From Flagellimonas sediminis (GTDB lineage: Bacteria > Bacteroidota > Bacteroidia > Flavobacteriales > Flavobacteriaceae): a stretch of DNA of 64,000 nt. The notes beneath the pieces were generated by a model, which worked only from the letters and a program-made list of their open reading frames with translations, ran no database searches and was not told the origin of the DNA. Position numbers and translations under genes: made by a program. The stretch spans positions 124,001 through 188,000 of the forward strand of contig NZ_JAAAMI010000006.1 in NCBI RefSeq assembly GCF_010500845.1, in the 5' to 3' direction. This document shows, in pieces, positions 11,024 to 22,520 of the stretch (position 1 is the first letter of the stretch; each line of letters opens with the position of its first letter).

Positions 11024-12760
11024 CTAATTAATAGTTGAGACAACACTGCCACAGGTGAGCATGGCATCGCCATAATAGGGATTCCGGATTTCCTCATCCA
11101 GACTCAACCAATTGGCTCCCTTGTTATTGTCGGCCATTGGGCAATGTTGCACGAACACTTTTTCGTTCAAACCTTTCATTTGGTTGCCCATCATGATCAT
11201 ATTTTCAGACAACATAATAAAATCTTCACGTTGTTTTTCAAGGGAGCTGGCTTTGGAAATTGAAGTTAACTTTTCACTGATAATAGCGAGGTGTTGCTTG
11301 GCCATATCATTCATGTCGGTTGTGCTCATTTGCTTTGCAACTTCAACTCCTTCCTTGGCCAGTTGCTGCACCTGTGTAGCATCGGAAGCAACCAAACCAT
11401 CCTTTAATTTCATATAACTGCCCAGCAATTGCTCAAACATGTTTTGGGCTTTTTCGGAAAATTCCATCTTCATGGCGGAAGACATGCCCATGTGGCCCTC
11501 ATGGTCCGTCATGGTTTTGCCACCATCTTGGTTCATCATGGATTTCTTTCCCTGTAGTTGCGCTGCGGCATCAACTGTAAATGTACCCTTGGCGACCACA
11601 CGATCTCCTGATTTCAAACCAGAATGGACCACATACACGTCATTCATTAGGTTTCCCAATTCCACTTCACGCAGTTCAAATATGGGGCTGTTGCCATCGG
11701 GTTGCACATAGACAACGGATCTTTTACCGGTCCATAGCACAGCACTTTCCGGAACGGTCAATACTTCGGCGTTTTCCATTTTGGAAACTTCCACCTCACC
11801 CTGAACGAACATCTCCGGTTTTAGCAAGCCTTTTTTATTATCCAGTTCTGCTCGTACCTCGAGCGTTCTGGTTTGGGCGTTCAAAATCGGGTCTATGAAG
11901 GAAATTTTAGCCTTAAATTTTTCATTCGGATAGGATGTGGTGGTCACTTCCATAACCTGTCCGGTCTTAAACTGGCTCAATTGGTTTTCATAAGCATCAA
12001 AAACGGCCCAAACGGAATTAAGATCGGCCACTTTCACCAAAGGTGAACCTGTTTTGATGTAATCCCCTTCTTCCACCATGATAGCAGATACGACCCCGTT
12101 TACATTGGCATAAACCGGGAAATTTTCCACCACCTTGCCCGAGTTTTCAATTTGATCGATCTGGGCATCGGACAGTTTCCAAAGTTTTAATTTGTTGCGC
12201 ACCGCATTGTATAATTGTGGTTGGTTTGATTTCAACCCCGCAGCGGTCAACAATTCTTGCTGGGCGGACACCAATGCGGGAGCATAAATAGTGGCCAACT
12301 TTTGGCCCTTACGGACTTCTTCCCCTTCAAAATTGATGGACAGGCTTTCTATCCGACCATCAAAATAGGCCGATTGCACTGCATCCGAATTTTGGTTGAT
12401 GGCCACTTTCCCCGAAAGTTTGATTTGATCATCCCCCTGAACATCGGACCCCACAACAAGGGTTTCCACCCCGGCCAATACCATGGCATTTTCCGTCATT
12501 TTAATTTGATTGGCCGCCAAGCCTTCCCCATTGGCATCCGCAGGGATCAAATCCATGCCACAAATGGGGCAACTTCCTGGCTCTGGTTGCATAATTTGGG
12601 GGTGCATGGAGCAAGTCCACATTTCTTCGGCGGCAATCTCTGCATCATGGTTATGTGCATCCATTGAAGCGGTTTCAGCTTTACCGCCAAAAATGAAATA
12701 CCCCACAAGCAGCCCTACTATGACCGCAATTCCGATGTAAACAATATTTTCCTTTTTCAT
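11024..12760 (-). CDS. cusB: CusB-like RND efflux adaptor with N-terminal metal-binding module and C-terminal DUF3347
   Basis: 578 residues from the ATG at 12760, which starts the membrane anchor (MKKENIVYIGIAVIVGLLVGY); a longer frame upstream lacks a sensible N-terminus. Near residues 47-72 sits a heavy-metal-binding module (CSMHPQI...CPICGMDL). Membrane-fusion-protein lipoyl/barrel domains follow (YFDGRIESLSINFEGE, VNGVVSAIMVEEGDYI). A C-terminal DUF3347-type domain carries HCPMADNNKG and a late Cys (LTCGSV). It bridges the CusA pump and TolC channel in the periplasm and probably hands over Cu(I)/Ag(I). Last gene of the copper operon, 5 bases after the PepSY gene. Confidence 0.92.
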   Translation of the reverse strand: MKKENIVYIGIAVIVGLLVGYFIFGGKAETASMDAHNHDAEIAAEEMWTCSMHPQIMQPEPGSCPICGMDLIPADANGEGLAANQIKMTENAMVLAGVETLVVGSDVQGDDQIKLSGKVAINQNSDAVQSAYFDGRIESLSINFEGEEVRKGQKLATIYAPALVSAQQELLTAAGLKSNQPQLYNAVRNKLKLWKLSDAQIDQIENSGKVVENFPVYANVNGVVSAIMVEEGDYIKTGSPLVKVADLNSVWAVFDAYENQLSQFKTGQVMEVTTTSYPNEKFKAKISFIDPILNAQTRTLEVRAELDNKKGLLKPEMFVQGEVEVSKMENAEVLTVPESAVLWTGKRSVVYVQPDGNSPIFELREVELGNLMNDVYVVHSGLKSGDRVVAKGTFTVDAAAQLQGKKSMMNQDGGKTMTDHEGHMGMSSAMKMEFSEKAQNMFEQLLGSYMKLKDGLVASDATQVQQLAKEGVEVAKQMSTTDMNDMAKQHLAIISEKLTSISKASSLEKQREDFIMLSENMIMMGNQMKGLNEKVFVQHCPMADNNKGANWLSLDEEIRNPYYGDAMLTCGSVVSTIN

Positions 12761-12765
12761 CTCTG

Positions 12766-13473
12766 TTATTTTTTTCGTTGTATCAACTTGCGAACACTCG
12801 GCGACGAGGTAAACCACAGCAAGAATCCGCTCAACACCGTGACCAATCCTAAAAGTGAAAATGCTCGAAGTACGGTGGTGTTAAAATCGTCCCTGCCCTC
12901 ATAATCCATGGTATGGGTCATCCATAAAAAATCGAACCAACGCCAATTGCGGTGTCGGACGGTTTGAAACGAACCATCTTCTACGGACACATAGGCCTTG
13001 ATGTCTTCGGGCGAATCATACGAAATAACGTAGGCGGGTAATTTCTTCTCGCGGTATTCGTGGTGTTTGTCAGTTTCCGAAAGCACTTCAACACCTTTCA
13101 CCTTAAGATCAGGGGACATTTGATTATGGGCCACTTGCAGAGCTTCCTCCTTTGTAATGCCTTCTTTCAGTTTGCCCGTTCTGGCATCCACCAAAAATTT
13201 GTTGTTGATCCAGTAATAGGGTTTGCCCGCGATTTCCTTTAAACTTATTGCACTGATATTTTCGGTAACCTTAATCTCTGAAAGGCCGATCAGATCATTG
13301 AACGCCATGGGTTCATATTCCATGTTCCTAAAATGATCGCCATGGATCTCGTCAATGTCGGTCCAACTGAAATAGAGGCCACTGGCCGTCCACATAATGA
13401 ACTGAATGCCCAAAAACAGCCCCAAATACCGATGGGCCTTTCGAATTTTTACCGCCGTGGTTCTTTTTACCAT
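12766..13473 (-). CDS. PepSY-domain membrane protein of the copper cluster
   Basis: 235 residues. An N-terminal helix (RYLGLFLGIQFIMWTASGLYFSW) and a C-terminal helix (AFSLLGLVTVLSGFLLWF) enclose a periplasmic region with PepSY-like segments (ITKEEALQVAHNQMSP, TGKLKEGI). The layout resembles a short PepSY_TM protein. Such proteins accompany metal uptake or efflux genes in Bacteroidota; a role in periplasmic metal handling or electron transfer is suggested but unproven. It starts 2 bases after the copA stop and ends 5 bases before the adaptor start, so it is tightly co-transcribed. Confidence 0.82.
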   Translation of the reverse strand: MVKRTTAVKIRKAHRYLGLFLGIQFIMWTASGLYFSWTDIDEIHGDHFRNMEYEPMAFNDLIGLSEIKVTENISAISLKEIAGKPYYWINNKFLVDARTGKLKEGITKEEALQVAHNQMSPDLKVKGVEVLSETDKHHEYREKKLPAYVISYDSPEDIKAYVSVEDGSFQTVRHRNWRWFDFLWMTHTMDYEGRDDFNTTVLRAFSLLGLVTVLSGFLLWFTSSPSVRKLIQRKK

Positions 13474-13475
13474 AT

Positions 13476-15977
13476 TTAATCAATTGATTTTGTTCGTAAG
13501 CGCAATGCATTGCCTATCACCGATACCGAGCTGAAACTCATGGCCAGTGCGGCAATCATTGGTGACAACAGGATTCCAAAAAAAGGATAGAGCACCCCTG
13601 CTGCCACCGGCACACCTATCGTATTATAGATCAAGGCAAAAAACAGGTTCTGCTTGATGTTTTTCATGACCGCTTCACTGAGGTTCCTTGCTTTTACAAT
13701 ACCGTGAAGGTCGCCTTTGACCAGAGTGATCATGGCACTTTCAATGGCCACATCGGTACCGGTGCCCATGGCAATGCCCAAATCGCTTTTTGCCAATGCA
13801 GGGGCATCGTTGATGCCATCCCCGGCCATGGCCACAATCTTTCCTTCGGATTGTAGACGTTCCACTTCCTTCATTTTGTCCTCGGGCAAGGTCTCTGCCT
13901 TAAAATCGTCCAAGTTGAGTTCCTTCGCCACGGCAGCCGCTGTATTTTTGTTGTCACCAGTAAGCATAATCACGGAAATGCCCTTGTCCTGAATCGCTTT
14001 GATCGCTTTGGCACTGGTCTCCTTCACCTTATCCCCAATGGCTACATAGCCTCGACATTTGCCATCCACAGCAAGATAGGATATTGTTTTCCCTTGCTCT
14101 TGGGATTTGGCAACCTCATCCTTCATTTTTTGGGTAATCTCAATTCCGTTTTTGTCCATGAGTTTAGTATTGCCCAGCAGCACTTTTTTGCCGTCCACAA
14201 CACCTTCGACCCCCATGCCGGTTACTGAATTAAAATCCTTAGACTTTAAAATTCCAATATTATTTTCTTTTCCAAATTTGACGGTTGCCTGCGCCAAGGG
14301 ATGTTCACTATTGGCATTGACCGAAATCAGGTATTGGAGCAATTCCTCATTGGAGTAGTCGTCCCCAAAATTTCCAAAATGGTCGAAAGTAGGTTTGCCC
14401 TCTGTGATGGTTCCCGTTTTATCCACGATCAACGTATCTACCTTTGCCATTTTTTCCAAGGCTTCGGCATTCTTGATCAACACCCCGTTTTGGGCCCCTT
14501 TGCCCACACCGACCATTACGGACATGGGGGTAGCCAAACCCAAAGCACATGGACAGGCAATGATCAACACCGCAATGGCATTGATCAAGGCATACACATA
14601 GGGGGGCTGTGGTCCCCAAATGGCCCATACCGCAAAAGTGATGACTGAAATAAGGACCACCGTTGGCACAAAATAGGCAGATACCCTGTCTGCCAAATTT
14701 TGGATGGGTGCGCGGCTTCGACTTGCATCGTTTACCATATTGATGATCTGGGAAAGTAGGGTATCGCTGCCCACTTTCTCGGCTTTCATCAAAAAGGTTT
14801 GGTTACCATTAATGGTTCCACTGCTTACCTTGTCATCCACAGTTTTTTCCACTGGGATGGGTTCCCCAGTGATCATGGATTCATCCACAGATGTCTCCCC
14901 TTCTGTTATGACCCCATCCACGGGAATTTTCTCACCTGGTTTCACCCTAAGGATGTCCCCCAATTCTATCGCGTCGATATGGACTTCCTGTTCCTCACCA
15001 TCCACCACTTTGGTAGCCTTATTGGGAGCCAATTTCAATAGCTCCTTTACCGCATTATTGGTTTTACTATGAGCCCTAGCCTCCAACAATTGACCCAACA
15101 ATACCAAAGTGAGGATAACGGTGGTGGCCTCAAAATATACATGCACCGCACCGGATTCGTCTTTGAATTGATCTGGGAAAAAATCAGGAAACAACAGCCC
15201 CAATATACTGAACACAAAAGCGACCCCGGCTCCAATTCCGATGAGGGTGAACATGTTCAGGTTCCACGTTTTGATGCTCCGGTAGGCCCTCTCAAAAAAC
15301 ATCCATGTAGCATAAAATACCACAGGCAAAGACAAGGCAAACTGCACCCAATTCCAATATTTGGGCGACATGGCCTGGTACAAAGGGTTGTTGGGCACCA
15401 TATCGCTCATGGCGATCAAAAAAATGGGCAAGGTAAATCCAACGGCCAACCAAAACTTTTTCAGCAGTTTTTTATAGGTCTTCTCTTCTGCACTGGCTTC
15501 GGGTTTCATCGCTACGAGATCCATACCACAGATCGGACAGGAACCAGGCCCATCCTCCACCACTTCGGGATGCATGGGACAGGTCCATTTTTCCTTGGAA
15601 CCCGAGGTTATGTTCTGTTCTTCCACCAAATCCATCCCACATACGGGGCAGTCACCCGGTTGGTCGTACGTTTTGTCATCTTCGCAGCGCATGGGACAAT
15701 AAAAGGTGCCCGTTCCACCCTTGACCGGCCGATCATTCTTTTTTTTTGGCTCATGGTGGTGATGGCCGGGCATATGTATGGTATACCCACCACCATCGTT
15801 CTCCAATGCCTTTTCAAATGTTTCCAAGGGAATATGCTCCCCCATTTCTATCGTAGCCTCGGCCTTCTCCAAGTTCACCTCTACCGCTTGCACTCCATCC
15901 ACGTTGGAAAGGGTTTTCTCAACATGGCTTCTGCAGCCGTTACAGCTCATTCCGTGTATGTGATAGGTATGCTTCAT
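13476..15977 (-). CDS. copA: Copper-exporting P1B-type ATPase CopA with HMA and two extra metal-binding modules
   Basis: 833 residues. The N-terminal HMA domain has GMSCNGC (Cys12, Cys15). A GHHHHE linker (71-76) is followed by two heavy-metal-binding modules (CPMRCEDD...CPVCGMDL, 94-117; CPMHPEVV...CPICGMDL, 133-154). The ATPase core has TGEP (actuator), CPC in the membrane (475-477), the phosphorylated Asp519 in DKTGT, SEHPLA (nucleotide site) and [11 protein letters not shown]. The CPC motif fits Cu(I)/Ag(I) export from cytoplasm to periplasm. Normal CopA has one or two HMA domains; the tandem CPxCGM modules are a common Bacteroidota addition. It lies between the HMA-AraC regulator and the PepSY gene. 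Confidence 0.96.
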
Positions 15978-16046
15978 CTTGTTTGTTTTTTTATTTCAAA
16001 ACTAGTTGATCGCAGCTTGGAGGATTTTTACAATTTTGGGTTTCTT

Positions 16047-16598
16047 TTATACAATTTGATCTAAGGATTTCCTGTTCCAATCCTGTACATTTTTGTATTC
16101 GGACATCGACATTCCCGTTACGGTTTTAAACTGTTTTGCCAAATGACTGCTGCTTTTGTAATTCAGGTCATAGGCGATTTCAGAAAAGGTTTTGTTGTCC
16201 ATCTGAATCTCCTCCTTTACTTTTTCCATCTTCAGAAGGATAAAATATTTTTCAATGGTCAATCCTTCTTTCGCACTGAACAATTTACTCAGCATTGAGT
16301 ACTCTTTGTTCATCTTTTCTGATAGGTATGTCGAGAGATTCTGTGAAATGCCATTTTCAACAGCTTCGATCAAATGTTTTTTGATGTCCACAATGATGGT
16401 TTCATTCAAATCGGCGATCAATTCAAAGCCATTTTGGATCAGAATCTCTCGAATACGCTCTTTTTTTGCTTCGGCTCCATCTGCAAACCGAACTTCTCCC
16501 AGATCAATTTGCACCACCTCGATGCCTTCTTTCTGAAATTCACTTTTCAGAACGCTCTTGCATCTGTTGCAGACCATATTTTTGACCTTTATACGCAT
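16047..16598 (-). CDS. AraC-type regulator fused to an HMA-like CxxC domain
   Basis: 183 residues. The first ~65 look like a heavy-metal-associated ferredoxin-like fold: a beta strand MRIKVKNMVCNRCKS with Cys10-x-x-Cys13, a helix, then VVQIDLGEV and a second helix. An AraC/XylS DNA-binding domain fills residues ~100-170, with the second helix-turn-helix recognisable in FSEIAYDLNYKSSSHLAKQF and GMSMSEYKN. The cup-shaped AraC ligand domain is absent. The likely role is a cytoplasmic Cu(I)/Ag(I) sensor that controls this operon; that is inferred from the fusion and location. It sits 69 bases upstream of copA on the same strand. Confidence 0.88.
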   Translation of the reverse strand: MRIKVKNMVCNRCKSVLKSEFQKEGIEVVQIDLGEVRFADGAEAKKERIREILIQNGFELIADLNETIIVDIKKHLIEAVENGISQNLSTYLSEKMNKEYSMLSKLFSAKEGLTIEKYFILLKMEKVKEEIQMDNKTFSEIAYDLNYKSSSHLAKQFKTVTGMSMSEYKNVQDWNRKSLDQIV

Positions 16599-16629: not shown

Positions 16630-16986
16630 TTAGTTTTCGCCGTGCCCTTCTTGGTAATCTTCGTTCAATACGTAGGTCATTCCACAAACCGGACATTTTC
16701 CCTCAGCATCGCTACCGCTCCCTTCGCAGTGCATTGGGCAAACATATTTGGAGGTGTATTCTTTCCCCTGTTTATCGGCAGTGCCCATTTCACCCATATC
16801 GTGGTCTTTGTGGTCCATACTGTCCATTTCGTGGTTCATTTGATCGTTGCCGTGGTCCATATCGTGATCCATGGTTTCCTCCACAGCGGGTTCTTTGTTC
16901 TCTTCCGCCTTGCCTTTGCAGGATACCGTTAGTACCAATACAGATGCGAATGCGATTCCGATGATTGTTCTGATGTTTGTTTTCAT
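16630..16986 (-). CDS. Met/His/Asp-rich heavy-metal-binding lipoprotein
   Basis: 118 residues with a lipoprotein signal (VLVLTVSCKGK, Cys23). The middle is a dense Met-Asp-His run (MDHDMDHGNDQMNHEMDSMD and following), typical of low-affinity periplasmic Cu(I)/Ag(I) scavenging. A C-terminal heavy-metal-binding module (CPMHCEG...CPVCGMTY) matches those in CopA and the adaptor. It is probably an envelope copper buffer or chaperone feeding the RND pump. It lies between the TolC-like gene and the HMA-AraC regulator, 17 bases after the former. Confidence 0.87.
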   Translation of the reverse strand: MKTNIRTIIGIAFASVLVLTVSCKGKAEENKEPAVEETMDHDMDHGNDQMNHEMDSMDHKDHDMGEMGTADKQGKEYTSKYVCPMHCEGSGSDAEGKCPVCGMTYVLNEDYQEGHGEN

Positions 16987-17003: not shown

Positions 17004-18224
17004 TTACTTGTTGATTAAATAATTAATGATGGTAGATTGCATGTAATACAGCTGCACGGATTGTATTTGATTGGTTTGAAATTTCAATTGCAATTCCTGG
17101 ATATCCAGCACATCATTGAAATTGATGGTGCCCGTTTCATAGTTCTTGATCAAGATTTCCTCAGCATCCTTGGCCTGTTTTAGGTTTTGTGCTTGGGTTT
17201 CAAAGGAAATTCTGGCTTCGTTGCGCTGGGATACCGCTTTCGCGTAGGCATTCTCCAACACGTTCAAGCGCTCTTCTTTTTGAAACTCAATTTCTTTTTG
17301 TTTCAGTTCGTTCTGCTTGCTGACCGACTTGAATTTATTGTTGAAAATGGGAATGGAAAGGGTGACCATGGGCATTAAGATGTCCTTTCCATTGTCGCTG
17401 AACACCATATCGGGGCGCTCCGTCACGGGAATATAATCCAACCCAACGCCAAAACTTGGGGCATTTTCCTTTTGGTTGAGCACTTCGGATTGCACTACGG
17501 ATTCAAATAGTTGATCGTATTTTAAAAGTTCGGGGTTCAAGGACAGATCTTCTTTGTCGAACAAAACATCTTCCGCAGGAATTTGCATGTCGTCCACGAC
17601 TTCGACGAAAATACTTTCGTCCCGGTTCAATAGATTGTTGAAGACCGCCTGTTCGGCCATATACCGTTGGTCCAAAACTTGTTTCTTTTGTTGGAGTTCG
17701 TTCTGACGAATCTGTAGTTTAAGCACATCCACTGCCGAAGCCTTCCCCACTTCCACGGAAGTCAAGGCCAACTTTTCGTACGTTTTCAACAAGGCAATAT
17801 TCTCATCCAACACTTTTTGTGTTGCCTGTATGCCAAACAAAGTGTAATAGGATTGAGCTATGGACAACGCCAATTTTCGTTTGGCAATTACCAGTTCGGT
17901 GTACTCTGCATCCGCCATGGAACCGGCATAATTTTGTCTTGCGGTTATGGTCCCAAACCAGGGCAACATCTGGGAAACCGAAAAGCGGGCCCTCTGTGCA
18001 CCGGTTCGGGTTTCGGGTTCGCTCACAAAATATCCCGCACCGATTGTGGTATTGGGCAGTGTATTGACTTCGTTCACCTTTTCCGAGGCAATGGTGTGCC
18101 GCAGTTCCATGGCTTGAATTACGGGACTGTTCAACTCCGCTTCCTGAAGGTAGGCTTCCAGGGTCTGTGCTTTCGAGACCATGGCCATCAAAACAAAAAA
18201 CGATATCATGATTGTTCTTTTCAT
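17004..18224 (-). CDS. TolC/CusC-family outer-membrane efflux channel
   Basis: 406 residues with a signal peptide (MKRTIMISFFVLMAMVSKAQ) and two repeats of long amphipathic coiled-coil helices (LEAYLQEAELNSPVIQAMEL, and the region of KQNELKQKEIEFQKEERL). This is the outer-membrane factor fold. It trimerises to form the exit duct of a tripartite pump. Its start overlaps the stop of the RND gene by 4 bases (ATGA), so pump and channel are translationally coupled. Copper/silver is the inferred substrate from context. Confidence 0.93.
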   Translation of the reverse strand: MKRTIMISFFVLMAMVSKAQTLEAYLQEAELNSPVIQAMELRHTIASEKVNEVNTLPNTTIGAGYFVSEPETRTGAQRARFSVSQMLPWFGTITARQNYAGSMADAEYTELVIAKRKLALSIAQSYYTLFGIQATQKVLDENIALLKTYEKLALTSVEVGKASAVDVLKLQIRQNELQQKKQVLDQRYMAEQAVFNNLLNRDESIFVEVVDDMQIPAEDVLFDKEDLSLNPELLKYDQLFESVVQSEVLNQKENAPSFGVGLDYIPVTERPDMVFSDNGKDILMPMVTLSIPIFNNKFKSVSKQNELKQKEIEFQKEERLNVLENAYAKAVSQRNEARISFETQAQNLKQAKDAEEILIKNYETGTINFNDVLDIQELQLKFQTNQIQSVQLYYMQSTIINYLINK

Positions 18225-21200
18225 CGTTGTTGCATTTTAAGTTGTAACTCACTTTTCCAACTAAAGAGCACTGGGACCACAAAAAGGGTGATCAATGCGA
18301 TCAACATACCGCCAAAGCTAGGTATGGCCATGGGAATCATGATGTCGCTCCCTCTGCCTGTGCTGGTGAGCACCGGCAATAAAGCCAGTATGGTGGTGGC
18401 CGTTGTCATTAAACAAGGTCTTATTCTTTTCTCCCCGGCCTCAAGAACGGAAGCCCGAATACCTTTAATGGATTCCGGTTCGTTCTTCGCAAAGGTTTGG
18501 GTAAGGTAGGTGGCCATGACCACCCCATCATCCGTAGCAATACCAAAAAGAGCTATAAATCCGACCCAAACGGCCACGCTCAAATTGATGGTATGCATCT
18601 GGAATAGGCCCCTAACATTTTCACCCATAAAGCTGAAGTTCAGGAACCACTCCTGTCCATAAAGCCAGATCATCATGAAACCGCCCGCAAAGGCCACGGC
18701 AATCCCCGAAAAAACCATCAACGAGGTGGCCACAGACCTGAATTGAAAATAGAGGATCAAGAAAATGATCAACAGGGCCAATGGCACCACCACGGATAAC
18801 GTTTTCTTGGCCCTTAACTGGTTTTCGTAGGTACCTGTGAACTTATAGCTGATACCCTTGGGCACCACCAATTCCCCACTTTCTATTTTCTCAAGGATCT
18901 TGGCTTGGGCATTTTCCACCACATTCACTTCGGCAAAACCATCTTGTTTGTCAAAAAGAACGTAGCCTACCAAAAAGGTGTCCTCGCTTTTAATCACTTG
19001 TGGCCCCTGTTCATATTTAATGGTCACCAGTTCACTTAAGGGAACAGGGCTTCCCTTGGCAACTGGAACATAAATGTTCCCAATATCGGTAGGGTTCTCC
19101 CGTAATTCCCTAGGGTAACGGACACGGACCCCATATCGTTCCCTCCCCTCAACGGTTTGGGTAAGCGACATGCCGCCAATGGCCACCTCAAGAACTTGCT
19201 GTACATCTTCTATAACCAGTCCGTATCGCACCAATTTTTCACGATCAATATCGATCATCAAATAAGGTTTACCCACAATGCGGTCTGCAAAAACGGCCTC
19301 GTCCTTTACTCCATTGGCTTCTTTTAAAATAGATTCCAATTGAAGTCCAAAATTTTCAATTTCCTTCAAATCCTGCCCCTTTACCTTGATTCCCATGGGG
19401 GCCCTCATTCCAGTTTGGAGCATCACTAAACGGGTTTCAATCGGTTGTAGTTTGGGGGCAGAGGTAACTCCTGGCAATTTGGTTACCCTTACAATTTCGT
19501 TCCAGATATCATCCGGACTCTTGATTTCGGGGCGCCAGTTCCTAAAGTATTCCCCATCCGTATCAGGGATCAAAAGTGCCCTATCGATCTTAAGGGGTTC
19601 GGCAACGTGTAAATCCTTATACTTTTCTTCCCGCGTCACTTCCAAATTTGGATTGGCGGCAAATTTGCCGTCTTTTAGTTCGAAGTAACCATCCCTGTTT
19701 ACTTTGAACCTTTGTGGTTCTCCTGCCTCATTTTTTTGGTATTCTGATCTATACTGAATAATATTTTCATACATGGAAAGGGGTGCCGGATCCAAAGCCG
19801 ATTCGGTCCTTCCCGCTTTGCCTACCACAGTTTGAATCTCGGGGATGGTGGCCACGGCCATGTCCAATTGCTGCAATACCCGTTTGTTTTCCTCAACCCC
19901 GGCATGCGGCAAGGAGGTGGGCATCAATAAGAAAGAACCTTCGTTCAAGGAGGGCATGAACTCTTGACCCGTGTTGCGCATGATCAATACTCCAAAGACC
20001 ACGATTACGGTCGGGATGGACAAGAACATCAATTTGTTCTCCAATGCCCAGGTCAATATGCGACGATAATAGGTTCTGAACAGATAAAAAATACCCAACA
20101 ACACCCCACAGATCAGCGATACAAAAATCAAGTTGATGGCAATGCTCCTATGGAATCCCAAAGGTCTCCAATAGGTAGCCAAAAGAGCAACAATGGTGGC
20201 AATGCTTATCCCAACATTAAGGATGTTCCATTGCTTTTTGCTGATAACTTCCTTCAAACTCAAAATCCCAGAAATCCCAAAGGCAATCAACATCAATCCA
20301 AGCCAATAACCGAATATGATTGCCAACAATCCCAACACGATCAACAAGCCATTCCATATATGTTTAAAAATCGGTTTACGATCGTTCCTCTTAAAAATAA
20401 TGGCAGCAAACGGCGGTATCAGAAACAGGGCAACGATAATGGATGCTGTTAACGCCATAGTCTTGGTAAAGGCCAACGGACGGAACAATTTCCCCTCTGC
20501 ACCTACCATGGTGAAAACCGGTATAAAACTGATGATTGTTGTAAGTACTGCGGTTACAATGGCACCCGAAACTTCGGAAGTGGCATTGTAGACTAATTCG
20601 TTGATAGATAGTTTACCATCATCCTCATCCATGTGCCGAATGATATTTTCGGACAAAATCACACCCACATCCACCATGGTTCCAATGGCAATGGCAATAC
20701 CGGATAGCGCCACGATGTTGGCATCCACTCCAAAATATTTCATGGCGATAAAAACCATGAGCACTGCAACGGGCAGCAATCCCGAGATCAGAACAGAAGC
20801 TCTTAGGTTAAATACCATCACCACGATCACCAAAATGGTGATCAAAATTTCAAGGGTCAGGGCTTCGTTCAAGGTACCCAATGTTTCTTGAATCAGTTCG
20901 GTACGATCATAAAAAGGCACGATGGTCAATTGTGAGGTTCTTCCATCTTGCAGTTGTTTGGAAGGTAACCCCGCACTCAATTCCTTGATCTTTTCCTTCA
21001 CATTGTTGATGACCTCCAACGGATTGGCCCCATATCGTGCAACTACCACACCGCCAGCGACCTCCGCACCTTCCTTGTCCAAAATGCCCCTTCGTATGGC
21101 AGGACCCAAGGAAACATGGGCCACATCCTTTACACGAATCGAAGTATAATCGGTGGAAGTGACCACAGCATTTTTAATATCTTCTATAGATTTGATGTAC

Positions 21201-21958
21201 CCCAATCCCCTGACCAAATATTCTGCCTTGTTGACCTCCAAGGTTTGGGCCCCAATGTCACGATTGCTCTGTTTCACCGCTTTTACAACCTGCGCCAGTC
21301 CCACCTTGTACTGTTTCATCAACTCAGGATCTACATCCACCTGATATTCCTGAACAAACCCACCGATGGAAGCCACTTCGGACACCCCGGAAGCTGAGGA
21401 GAGGGCGTATTTTACATAGTAATCCTGAACGCTACGCAGTTCTTGAAGGTCCCAACCTCCCGTTACATTGCCATCTATGTCACGACCTTCCAACGTATAC
21501 CAAAAAATCTGCCCCAAAGCCGTGGCATCGGGTCCCAAAGCTGGGTTTACGCCGTCGGGCAACAGGTTATTGGGGAGGGAGTTCAATTTTTCCAGAATAC
21601 GGCTTCGGCTCCAATAAAATTCCACATCCTCATCAAAAATGATATAGATGCTCGAAAACCCGAACATGGAAGAGCTCCTGATGGTCTTAACCCCCGGAAT
21701 TCCCAGTAAAGATGTGGTCAGGGGATAGGTGATTTGGTCTTCAATATCCTGTGGTGAGCGACCAGGCCATTTCGTGAATACGATCTGCTGGTTTTCTCCG
21801 ATATCCGGAATGGCATCCACCGCAACAGGATCACTGGGTAGAAATCCCGTATCCCAATTGAAAGGAGTGTTCACGGTTCCCCATCCCAAAAAAAGCACAA
21901 GCAGTAAAATGGCTACCAGCTTGTTTTCGATTAGAAATTTGATGCTTTTGTTCAGCAT
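18221..21958 (-). CDS. cusA: CusA/CzcA-family heavy-metal RND efflux pump, enlarged
   Basis: 1245 residues; most CusA/CzcA proteins have about 1020-1050. The heavy-metal RND hallmarks are present: TKWPGRSPQDIEDQITYPL, GIAIAIGTMVDVGVI (TM4 region) and GIATDDGVVMATYL (TM10 region). Two insertions explain the extra size. About 95 residues at ~533-628, between TM6 and TM7, hold three or four additional hydrophobic segments. A periplasmic stretch near 740-820 is also longer. It is a proton-driven exporter taking Cu(I)/Ag(I) from periplasm or inner membrane to the TolC channel. It follows the HYC_CC_PP gene by 93 bases. Substrate inferred from the neighbouring copA. Confidence 0.93.
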   Translation of the reverse strand: MLNKSIKFLIENKLVAILLLVLFLGWGTVNTPFNWDTGFLPSDPVAVDAIPDIGENQQIVFTKWPGRSPQDIEDQITYPLTTSLLGIPGVKTIRSSSMFGFSSIYIIFDEDVEFYWSRSRILEKLNSLPNNLLPDGVNPALGPDATALGQIFWYTLEGRDIDGNVTGGWDLQELRSVQDYYVKYALSSASGVSEVASIGGFVQEYQVDVDPELMKQYKVGLAQVVKAVKQSNRDIGAQTLEVNKAEYLVRGLGYIKSIEDIKNAVVTSTDYTSIRVKDVAHVSLGPAIRRGILDKEGAEVAGGVVVARYGANPLEVINNVKEKIKELSAGLPSKQLQDGRTSQLTIVPFYDRTELIQETLGTLNEALTLEILITILVIVVMVFNLRASVLISGLLPVAVLMVFIAMKYFGVDANIVALSGIAIAIGTMVDVGVILSENIIRHMDEDDGKLSINELVYNATSEVSGAIVTAVLTTIISFIPVFTMVGAEGKLFRPLAFTKTMALTASIIVALFLIPPFAAIIFKRNDRKPIFKHIWNGLLIVLGLLAIIFGYWLGLMLIAFGISGILSLKEVISKKQWNILNVGISIATIVALLATYWRPLGFHRSIAINLIFVSLICGVLLGIFYLFRTYYRRILTWALENKLMFLSIPTVIVVFGVLIMRNTGQEFMPSLNEGSFLLMPTSLPHAGVEENKRVLQQLDMAVATIPEIQTVVGKAGRTESALDPAPLSMYENIIQYRSEYQKNEAGEPQRFKVNRDGYFELKDGKFAANPNLEVTREEKYKDLHVAEPLKIDRALLIPDTDGEYFRNWRPEIKSPDDIWNEIVRVTKLPGVTSAPKLQPIETRLVMLQTGMRAPMGIKVKGQDLKEIENFGLQLESILKEANGVKDEAVFADRIVGKPYLMIDIDREKLVRYGLVIEDVQQVLEVAIGGMSLTQTVEGRERYGVRVRYPRELRENPTDIGNIYVPVAKGSPVPLSELVTIKYEQGPQVIKSEDTFLVGYVLFDKQDGFAEVNVVENAQAKILEKIESGELVVPKGISYKFTGTYENQLRAKKTLSVVVPLALLIIFLILYFQFRSVATSLMVFSGIAVAFAGGFMMIWLYGQEWFLNFSFMGENVRGLFQMHTINLSVAVWVGFIALFGIATDDGVVMATYLTQTFAKNEPESIKGIRASVLEAGEKRIRPCLMTTATTILALLPVLTSTGRGSDIMIPMAIPSFGGMLIALITLFVVPVLFSWKSELQLKMQQR

Positions 21959-22051: not shown

Positions 22052-22438
22052 TCAAATAAGGAAAGTCTGGTCCAGAACCTGTACATCCCGTATTAACGGT
22101 GGGGGGTTGTACTCACTAAAATGATTAGGTTCCTTCTCGTCTACTTCAACAAAATGGAAATAGGTATGCACAAAGCTTACAATGAAGAACTGTTGGTCCA
22201 GACTAAAATCATCAAAGGTGATTTTCAGGTCATGTTGCCCTTGGATCGTAAAGGATTCATCGTCACAACAGGTTTTTTCCATATCCTTGGTCATCCCACA
22301 GTCATCCGCATGGGAAAACAGGGCAACATCCATCACCCGGCCCATACAAATATGCTTGTCCACCGTCCAAGAAACGGTAGAGGCCAAGACCAAAATGGCC
22401 ATTAGTGATGATATGAATCGATGGAAAATCTGCTTCAT
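22052..22438 (-). CDS. HYC_CC_PP family small exported protein
   Basis: 128 residues with a hydrophobic signal segment (ISSLMAILVLASTVSW). The family's three named features are visible: a His-x-Cys (DKHICMGR, His29/Cys31), a double Cys (TCCDD, Cys57-Cys58) after a lone Cys47 (DDCGM), and a Pro-Pro stretch (NPPPLI) near the C-terminus. This Bacteroidota family is of unknown biochemical role and often sits beside RND metal-efflux genes. Conserved Cys, His and Met suggest periplasmic metal binding or sensing. It is the first gene of the copper operon and is divergent from the GAF-protein gene. Confidence 0.85.
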   Translation of the reverse strand: MKQIFHRFISSLMAILVLASTVSWTVDKHICMGRVMDVALFSHADDCGMTKDMEKTCCDDESFTIQGQHDLKITFDDFSLDQQFFIVSFVHTYFHFVEVDEKEPNHFSEYNPPPLIRDVQVLDQTFLI

Positions 22439-22520
22439 TTGACTACAAAACTACAAAATATTAACATTTATTGCTTTGCTTAACAGAAGTTTATGTCTCT
22501 ATATGGTAATTTCCACTTCA

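Follow-up and report, generated by a model that had tools for sequence, protein, structure and literature searches.

A copper operon of Flagellimonas sediminis encodes a protein of 183 amino acids that is predicted, from profile searches and structural models, to consist of a divergent HMA domain of the CopZ/Atx1 type, bearing the motif Cys10-x-x-Cys13, joined directly to an AraC-type DNA-binding domain. We consider it probable that this protein serves as a one-component transcription factor responding to metal, and most likely it activates the copA regulon in a Cu(I)-dependent manner; its metal binding, its DNA binding and its activating role are inferred. The gene lies on the reverse strand at 16047..16598 of the window, i.e. 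the entire 64,000-nucleotide stretch that was analyzed (contig NZ_JAAAMI010000006.1, positions 124,001 to 188,000). It represents a real open reading frame, since a chance reading is excluded by the conservation of the whole HMA-AraC fusion across many genera. An earlier reading of the DNA, made without database searches, had placed it between a gene for a metal-binding lipoprotein and copA, and the coordinates of these two neighbors (16630-16986 and 13476-15977) agree with this.

The genes of the operon are all on the reverse strand. Its first gene encodes a member of the HYC_CC_PP family (22052..22438; NF047658, 1.8e-29), followed by a cusA/czcA-family RND efflux gene (18221..21958), a TolC-like outer membrane efflux gene (17004..18224), whose best NCBIfam matches are below their cut-offs, and the lipoprotein-like gene (16630..16986), which has no NCBIfam match. 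Then come the regulator, copA (13476..15977), which codes for a P1B-type ATPase with an N-terminal HMA domain and the CPC, YN and MxSS motifs, a conserved gene of 235 amino acids (12766..13473) without an NCBIfam match, which we take to be PepSY-like, and finally a cusB-like RND adaptor gene (11024..12817).

Predicted domain architecture of the regulator

The AraC-type domain (residues ~65-176; 16071..16406, reverse strand), delimited by Pfam matches and structural alignment, is unambiguous: Pfam HTH_18 is recovered at 8.2e-13 over residues 92-169, and the curated cut-offs are exceeded both for this model (48.9 bits against 33.6) and for HTH_AraC (38.5 against 26.6), bearing out the helix-turn-helix pair recognized in the sequence-only reading. 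The HMA-like domain (residues 1-62; 16413..16598, reverse strand), which was recognized by a combination of profile search, models, structural alignment and conservation, is missed by a single-sequence search, as it scores below the Pfam gathering threshold of PF00403 (E 0.044, 14.6 bits against 24.8). Only 14 of 81 relatives match Pfam HMA at E<=0.01, and by these searches the HMA part is too divergent for detection from one sequence. A profile of residues 1-72 (51 sequences) nevertheless reaches solved copper HMA domains, namely CopA (1p6t) at 3.6e-6 and CopZ at 7.6e-6, with ATP7B as its best match (3e-11, summed over the ATP7B repeats), and the KNMVC-x-R-C of the regulator aligns on the KGMTC-x-x-C of ATP7B.

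Structural modeling points in the same direction. Residues 1-72 modeled alone with AlphaFold2 (pLDDT 83.3) are predicted to adopt a complete ferredoxin-like beta-alpha-beta-beta-alpha-beta fold, and VIA-align matches this model to TM0320 (Z 9.1), Ccc2a (8.3), ZntA (8.2), GolB (8.2) and HAH1 (8.1), the range for CopZ, Atx1, Ccc2a, HAH1, GolB and ZntA being 7.8-8.3. Of the nine rows reaching Z>=8, all but one (5fii) correspond to HMA domains. Foldseek E-values for the HMA model are weak (best 0.014, with a probability of ~1). In the full-length model (pLDDT 90.4) residues 1-62 match CsoZ (Z 8.5, rmsd 2.1 A) and CopZ (Z 8.3, rmsd 1.7 A), residues ~63-176 match AraC-type domains (6swi, Z 14.7; 1bl0 MarA, Z 13.4), and a helix comprising residues 61-82 leads from the HMA domain straight into the AraC domain. 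The absence of any other ligand domain, as had been claimed, thus holds in the model. The sequence-only reading had also proposed the HMA-like fold of the N-terminus and would have been refuted had this region folded otherwise; profile search, AlphaFold models and structural alignment agree on that fold.

The M-x-C-x-x-C motif of metal-binding HMA domains is present at the junction of loop 1 and helix 1 (motif KNMVCxRC; Cys10 codon 16569-16571, Cys13 codon 16560-16562, reverse strand), and the domain ends in G57-F58. Residues M8, V9, C10, C13, L33, G34 and F58 are invariant in 81 sequences and R12 is nearly so. This set was partly motif-selected, one of the patterns used to find loci being the motif itself, and the census given below is the fairer count.

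Distribution of the family and linkage to copper genes

Members of the family are present in 182 of the 395 Bacteroidota genomes of a phylum-wide sample (E<=1e-15). Within Flavobacteriaceae, 125 of 299 genomes carry at least one member at E<=1e-20, in a scan that scored about 11 candidates per genome, and the genome from which the window derives has seven at the same threshold. Stretches from the 59 nearest genomes yielded 89 full-length relatives, 76 of them distinct, and the named relatives among the matches listed come from several classes of Bacteroidota as well as from Balneolota and Ignavibacteria. Hence, the fusion does lie inside a copper operon, as the sequence-only reading had it, but it is no local oddity, being phylum-wide and often represented by several paralogs per genome. 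A survey of such fusions near copA and cusA in Bacteroidota, proposed earlier as a check, came out in favor of the idea: the fusion is found across the phylum, mostly beside copA/cusA-type genes. On plasmids, the matches listed (25 of 36 records; 25 of 25) are named as AraC-family, helix-turn-helix, response regulator or "hypothetical protein", or are unnamed, and in none of these listed matches does a gene name mention copper.

Of 79 loci, 73 have at least one of three kinds of gene within 5 kb, namely for a CopA-type ATPase, for an HMA protein or for CusA; an eightieth locus, L128, was left out as its gene was not called by the ORF filter. Among the 79 named loci, a CopA-type ATPase occurs within this distance at 57, CusA at 33 and a CusB-like protein at 43, the last figure being a cluster count, as a metal-binding motif that is shared inflates counts based on single BLAST labels. 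Downstream, the first gene in the same orientation encodes an ATPase at 39 of these loci and an HMA-only protein at 8. CPC and its companion ATPase motifs are of the Cu(I) type; the neighboring ATPases have CPC in 56 of 58 cases and CPH in two, and all three Cu(I)-type motifs sought are present in 49 of the 58. As a control, 20 AraC genes without an HMA domain were taken down the list of the same genome search, and none of the 20 has a copper gene within 5 kb.

In a census of the 76 distinct proteins both cysteines are retained in 58, of which 55 lie within 5 kb of copper or metal-export genes. The pair is lost in the remaining 18, and metal genes are nearby in only two of these, both in tandem with a CxxC member. 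The proteins lacking the cysteines form a single clade (SH-aLRT 93, in a quick tree in which the motif columns were kept), so the association between the cysteines and copper genes amounts to one event, for which we claim no p-value; the census association was accordingly dropped as a statistical test (Fisher 1.2e-11), and a test on independent pairs has just one pair. No recognized copper neighbors were found for 3 of the 58 CxxC members in the census and at 6 of the 79 loci.

A probable operator between the regulator gene and copA

Directly after the stop codon of the regulator, in the gap preceding copA, is a conserved block (15997-16055). It contains a 9-bp direct repeat with 21-bp spacing, situated upstream of a TAnnTTTG element, and we regard this repeat as a probable operator (16025..16054, reverse strand), for which there are no binding data. 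Half-site A (TTGTATAAA; 16046-16054, reverse strand) overlaps the last codons and the stop of the regulator gene, and half-site B is TTGTAAAAA (16025-16033, reverse strand). The -7-type promoter element of copA is TAGTTTTG (15997..16004, reverse strand), and 19 nt separate its end from the start codon of copA; TAnnTTTG is the consensus of the -7 promoter element according to the accessible part of a published account (PMC7366714).

Two sets of such sites, one of 28 and one of 17 sequences, can be aligned over some 60 nt with no internal gap and have a common layout: half-site A is followed by CC(A)nAAT, by half-site B at 21 bp from A and, past 20-22 nucleotides that are not conserved, by the -7 element. 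The latter reads TAnnTTTG in group 1; in group 2 it is usually nAnnTTTG. The repeat is wholly upstream of the -7 element at a near-fixed spacing. In group 1, half-site A overlaps the last codons of the regulator and coding constraint could mimic conservation there; in group 2 it lies past the stop codon, where coding constraint cannot explain the conservation. Self-comparison of the chosen sites peaks at a spacing of 21 bp (5.7 of 9 matches, all other spacings giving 1.9-3.9), and the peak recurs among matrix matches, in which this spacing is favored by the matrix itself. A matrix built from 21 loci outside the genus gives its top score within the window to this site (29.3 bits, the next being 3.2), and it remains first, by a small margin (16.2 against 12.2), if only noncoding columns are used; with these columns the best site falls elsewhere in one of 16 other loci (L036). 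No motif common to the regions preceding the regulator genes emerged when these were aligned in three groups.

Two models of the site, R1 and R2, derived from sequence alone, were scanned over the 59 genomes. Their training sites were picked by eye from the 79 loci: R1 was trained on the window and 27 further loci, including some of the same genus, and is not independent of a scan of that genus, a dependence avoided by the 21-locus matrix above; the 17 training loci of R2 are, by their titles, outside the genus of the window (three are from unclassified Bacteroidetes MAGs). Every one of the 34 R2 matches at E<1e-3 has a CxxC member at no more than 35 kb, the distance being at most 6 kb for 28 and at most 2 kb for 20; between E 1e-3 and 1e-2 the count near a CxxC member drops to 1 of 6 matches. 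The six sites beyond 6 kb are on G015:C2 (four), G002:C16 and G027:C1, and sites precede other genes at distances of up to 24 kb from the regulator. For R1 at E<1e-4, 20 of 21 matches are within 2 kb of a CxxC member, the remaining one being at a contig end directly before copA. A match to either model at E<1e-3 is present in 29 of the 32 genomes with a CxxC member and in one of the 27 without, at that same contig end (2.4e-12 for the two-by-two table of genomes, uncorrected for relatedness). Three genomes with a CxxC member (G037, G039 and G051) have no R1 or R2 match at this threshold, and the window's own site is absent from the R2 matches at E<1e-3.

In the phylum sample, which may include some genomes with R2 training loci, R2 has matches at E<=1e-3 in 42 of 395 genomes, 39 of which carry a family member; the other three (G067, G165 and G370) have weak matches (E 4.7e-4 to 9.6e-4). 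These 39 are only a fraction of the 182 carriers of the family, and given that most carriers have no match, R2 describes only part of the family and the site differs from it or is weaker in most of them.

A local matrix with cut-offs of our own choice (24 and 22) found 63 sites in the 89 fetched loci (1.26 Mb), spread over 49 loci, and none in 2.1 Mb of shuffles of these 49. The next gene after the site encodes a CopA-type ATPase in 27 cases, an HMA-labeled protein in 7 and a 73-aa CopZ-like protein, judged by eye, in 4; HYC_CC_PP follows 2 of the others and a family member 3, and the rest include a Cys-rich protein of 114 aa and a protein of 804 aa. At 31 of 35 R2-type sites in the fetched loci the following gene begins 14-42 bp further on, and it is often copA or codes for a CopZ-like protein.

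The operon promoter and loci lacking the regulator

A second conserved element, TAAACTTCTGTTAAGCAAA (22475..22493, reverse strand), is found at the promoter of the operon. In many Flavobacteriaceae this strongly conserved box (consensus TAAAsTTCTGTTAArCAAA) precedes HYC_CC_PP-cusA operons, with TAnnTTTG 35-37 bp downstream of it; as TAAASTTCTGTTAARCAAA it is conserved, at a near-fixed distance to TAnnTTTG, not only within the genus but also in Aquimarina, Psychroserpens and Winogradskyella. It was considered as the operator of the regulator and rejected: an exact copy occurs in 29 Flavobacteriaceae genomes, only 10 of which have a family member at E<=1e-20, compared with 125 of the 299 Flavobacteriaceae genomes scanned, and it precedes HYC_CC_PP-cusA operons lacking the regulator in G022, G033 and G017.

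At the loci of G022 and G033 both the regulator and copA are absent and the rest of the operon is kept with its own promoter box, and in G017 copA is kept without the regulator, with a gap too short for the operator site. The regulator is hence not indispensable, as these genomes keep copA or the remaining operon without it, and their patterns suggest that the functional unit is probably the regulator together with the copA site, the cus part having its own promoter. The probable target, in the absence of binding data, is the adjacent copA promoter along with other copper genes rather than the promoter of the whole operon, whose conserved box does not track the regulator. In the regulator-less operon of G017 (L247) cusA is split into two frames of 1100 and 135 aa.

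Inferred mode of action and competing explanations

Computation establishes the predicted domains, the copper-gene linkage, the repeat and the tight association of this repeat with the regulator. That the protein binds the repeat, that Cu(I) is its ligand via C10 and C13, that it dimerizes and that it activates rather than represses are inferences. In the mechanism we propose, the HMA domain would capture Cu(I) through Cys10 and Cys13, in the manner of CopZ or Atx1, and Cu(I) might bridge two HMA domains to give a dimer. In the Cu(I)-bound form the fused AraC domains would bind the 21-bp-spaced direct repeat, which ends ~20 bp upstream of the -7 element, and this would bring RNA polymerase to copA, with genes for CopZ-like and other copper proteins as additional targets in other genomes. 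The near-fixed position of the repeat upstream of the -7 element is compatible with an AraC activator that contacts the polymerase. If the Cu(I)-bridged assembly is true, copper capture and transcription would be a single step.

The same site could in principle serve a metal-responsive repressor, with the apo-protein on the repeat blocking the copA promoter and Cu(I) releasing it, as in CsoR and CopY, which are apo-repressors released by Cu(I) binding; occupancy just upstream of the -7 element might well hinder the polymerase. We regard this as improbable, given that most AraC-family proteins are activators and that a repeat that lies entirely upstream of the -7 element, separated from it by an unconserved gap of 20-22 nt at near-fixed spacing, occupies the usual place of an AraC-activator site, upstream of the promoter core element. 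The block after the stop codon might instead belong to copA promoters in general and be recognized by some other factor, and the operon promoter box, which turned out not to track the regulator, illustrates how a conserved element could mislead in this way. This is nonetheless very unlikely for the probable operator, as 26 of the 27 genomes without a CxxC member have no site at E<1e-3 (the exception being the contig end), every R2 match at this threshold falls within 35 kb of such a member, and sites also precede genes other than copA, well away from the regulator.

Little credence can likewise be given to the possibility that the HMA domain senses not copper itself but a partner, such as CopZ or the metal-binding domain of CopA, or the oxidation of the CxxC thiols. 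HMA domains dock with each other during copper transfer, and the regulator gene often has as its neighbor a gene for a further HMA protein or for a CopA that itself carries an HMA domain; against this, the M-x-C-x-x-C and G-F of metal-binding HMA domains are retained, and 27 of 63 predicted sites precede a CopA-type ATPase and 11 of 63 an HMA-type protein. Among the other site-following genes that could be named by eye (many remain unnamed) there is no oxidant-defence gene, which speaks against thiol oxidation. That another soft metal (Ag, Zn, Cd or Hg) is the physiological ligand appears extremely unlikely. The HMA domains of ZntA, ZiaA and GolB also match structurally, and the CopA of the window passes the cut-off of the NCBIfam cadmium family (411 against 313.5), but it scores higher on the copper model (589.9, cut-off 397), and the motifs of the neighboring ATPases described above are predominantly of the Cu(I) type. 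The Cu(I)-dependent activator is thus the reading that we retain. We further lean, if only slightly, towards a wider proposal, in which the family is a phylum-wide, undescribed one-component Cu(I) sensor whose metallochaperone domain replaces the ligand domain of AraC proteins, with a Cu(I)-bridged HMA pair assembling the activator on the 21-bp repeat, duplication into several copper regulons per genome, and loss of the cysteines and of copper control in one clade.

Relationship to known copper sensors

The regulator shares with CopZ, Atx1 and the metal-binding domains of Cu-ATPases (HMA, PF00403) the predicted fold, the MxCxxC motif and the terminal GF/GY, and differs from them in being fused to a DNA-binding domain, in scoring below the Pfam cut-off and in the nearly invariant Arg before the second Cys. 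With the AraC/XylS family (HTH_18), including bare forms such as MarA and SoxS, it has in common the DNA-binding domain; proteins of this family bind, upstream of the promoter, to half-sites repeated in direct orientation at about two helical turns, and the predicted site associated with the regulator gene, a direct repeat with 21-bp spacing, is of that kind. Its sensor is, however, an HMA domain rather than a cupin or other ligand domain. Ada likewise has a small cysteine-metal domain fused to an activating AraC domain; that domain is a Zn-Cys4 methyl acceptor of another fold, and its signal is methyl damage to DNA rather than copper. CueR (MerR), CsoR and CopY exert one-component, cytoplasmic Cu(I) control over copA-type genes, as we propose for the regulator, but their DNA-binding folds are unrelated to its AraC domain. 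CusRS is also tied to cus-type efflux, but it is a two-component system with periplasmic sensing and a phosphorelay, whereas the HMA-AraC regulator is a single polypeptide. Among the Pfam matches of the regulator at E<=10, from which weak matches had mostly been filtered out, there is no family of the MerR, CsoR or CopY type; with its AraC domain and predicted HMA fold the protein is distinct from CueR, CsoR, CopY and CusRS, just as the sequence-only reading had argued.

In the accessible part of a survey of marine bacteria (PMC10141476), the copper systems reported for the Bacteroidota covered are all of the two-component or ECF type. In the titles and opening lines of abstracts in the open literature, which leaves out most subscription journals, we found no description of a copper-linked AraC or HMA-AraC regulator. 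Both domains are known, and as far as the open literature shows their combination as a sensor is undescribed, making the family a candidate for a new class of copper sensor within the AraC regulators. It could be a missing cytoplasmic copper sensor of Bacteroidota and, if so, would constitute a new sensor class and explain the control of copA in many flavobacteria.

Observations on individual loci

Copper islands with several predicted operators were seen in two genomes (L366 and L178 on G015:C2; L367 and L170 on G002:C16), where these sites precede genes for CopZ-like, MFS-like, Cys-rich and other proteins. At L045:9624-9685 a predicted site is found right after the stop codon of a CxxC member and before a 419-aa permease-like gene (R2 E 2.7e-5, G058:C2:136127); this member is among those counted as having no metal neighbors. 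At L116 a CxxC member has no recognized copper gene within 5 kb and is followed by selenouridine synthase-like and SelD-like genes, as judged by eye. At L175 and L166, members of the Cys-lost and MMCNCC subgroups adjoin a SulP-like permease and a carbonic-anhydrase-like gene, also by eye. Relatives lacking the cysteines stand directly before a receiver-like gene of 147-155 aa at L050, L167, L169, L168 and L173, and at the first three of these loci a 723-aa gene, kinase-like by eye, is also beside them; these relatives have likely taken on another role since the metal site was lost. At L168:7418-7479 a weak copy of the operator (R2 E 0.0097) is situated ~190 bp upstream of the Cys-lost relative's own gene.
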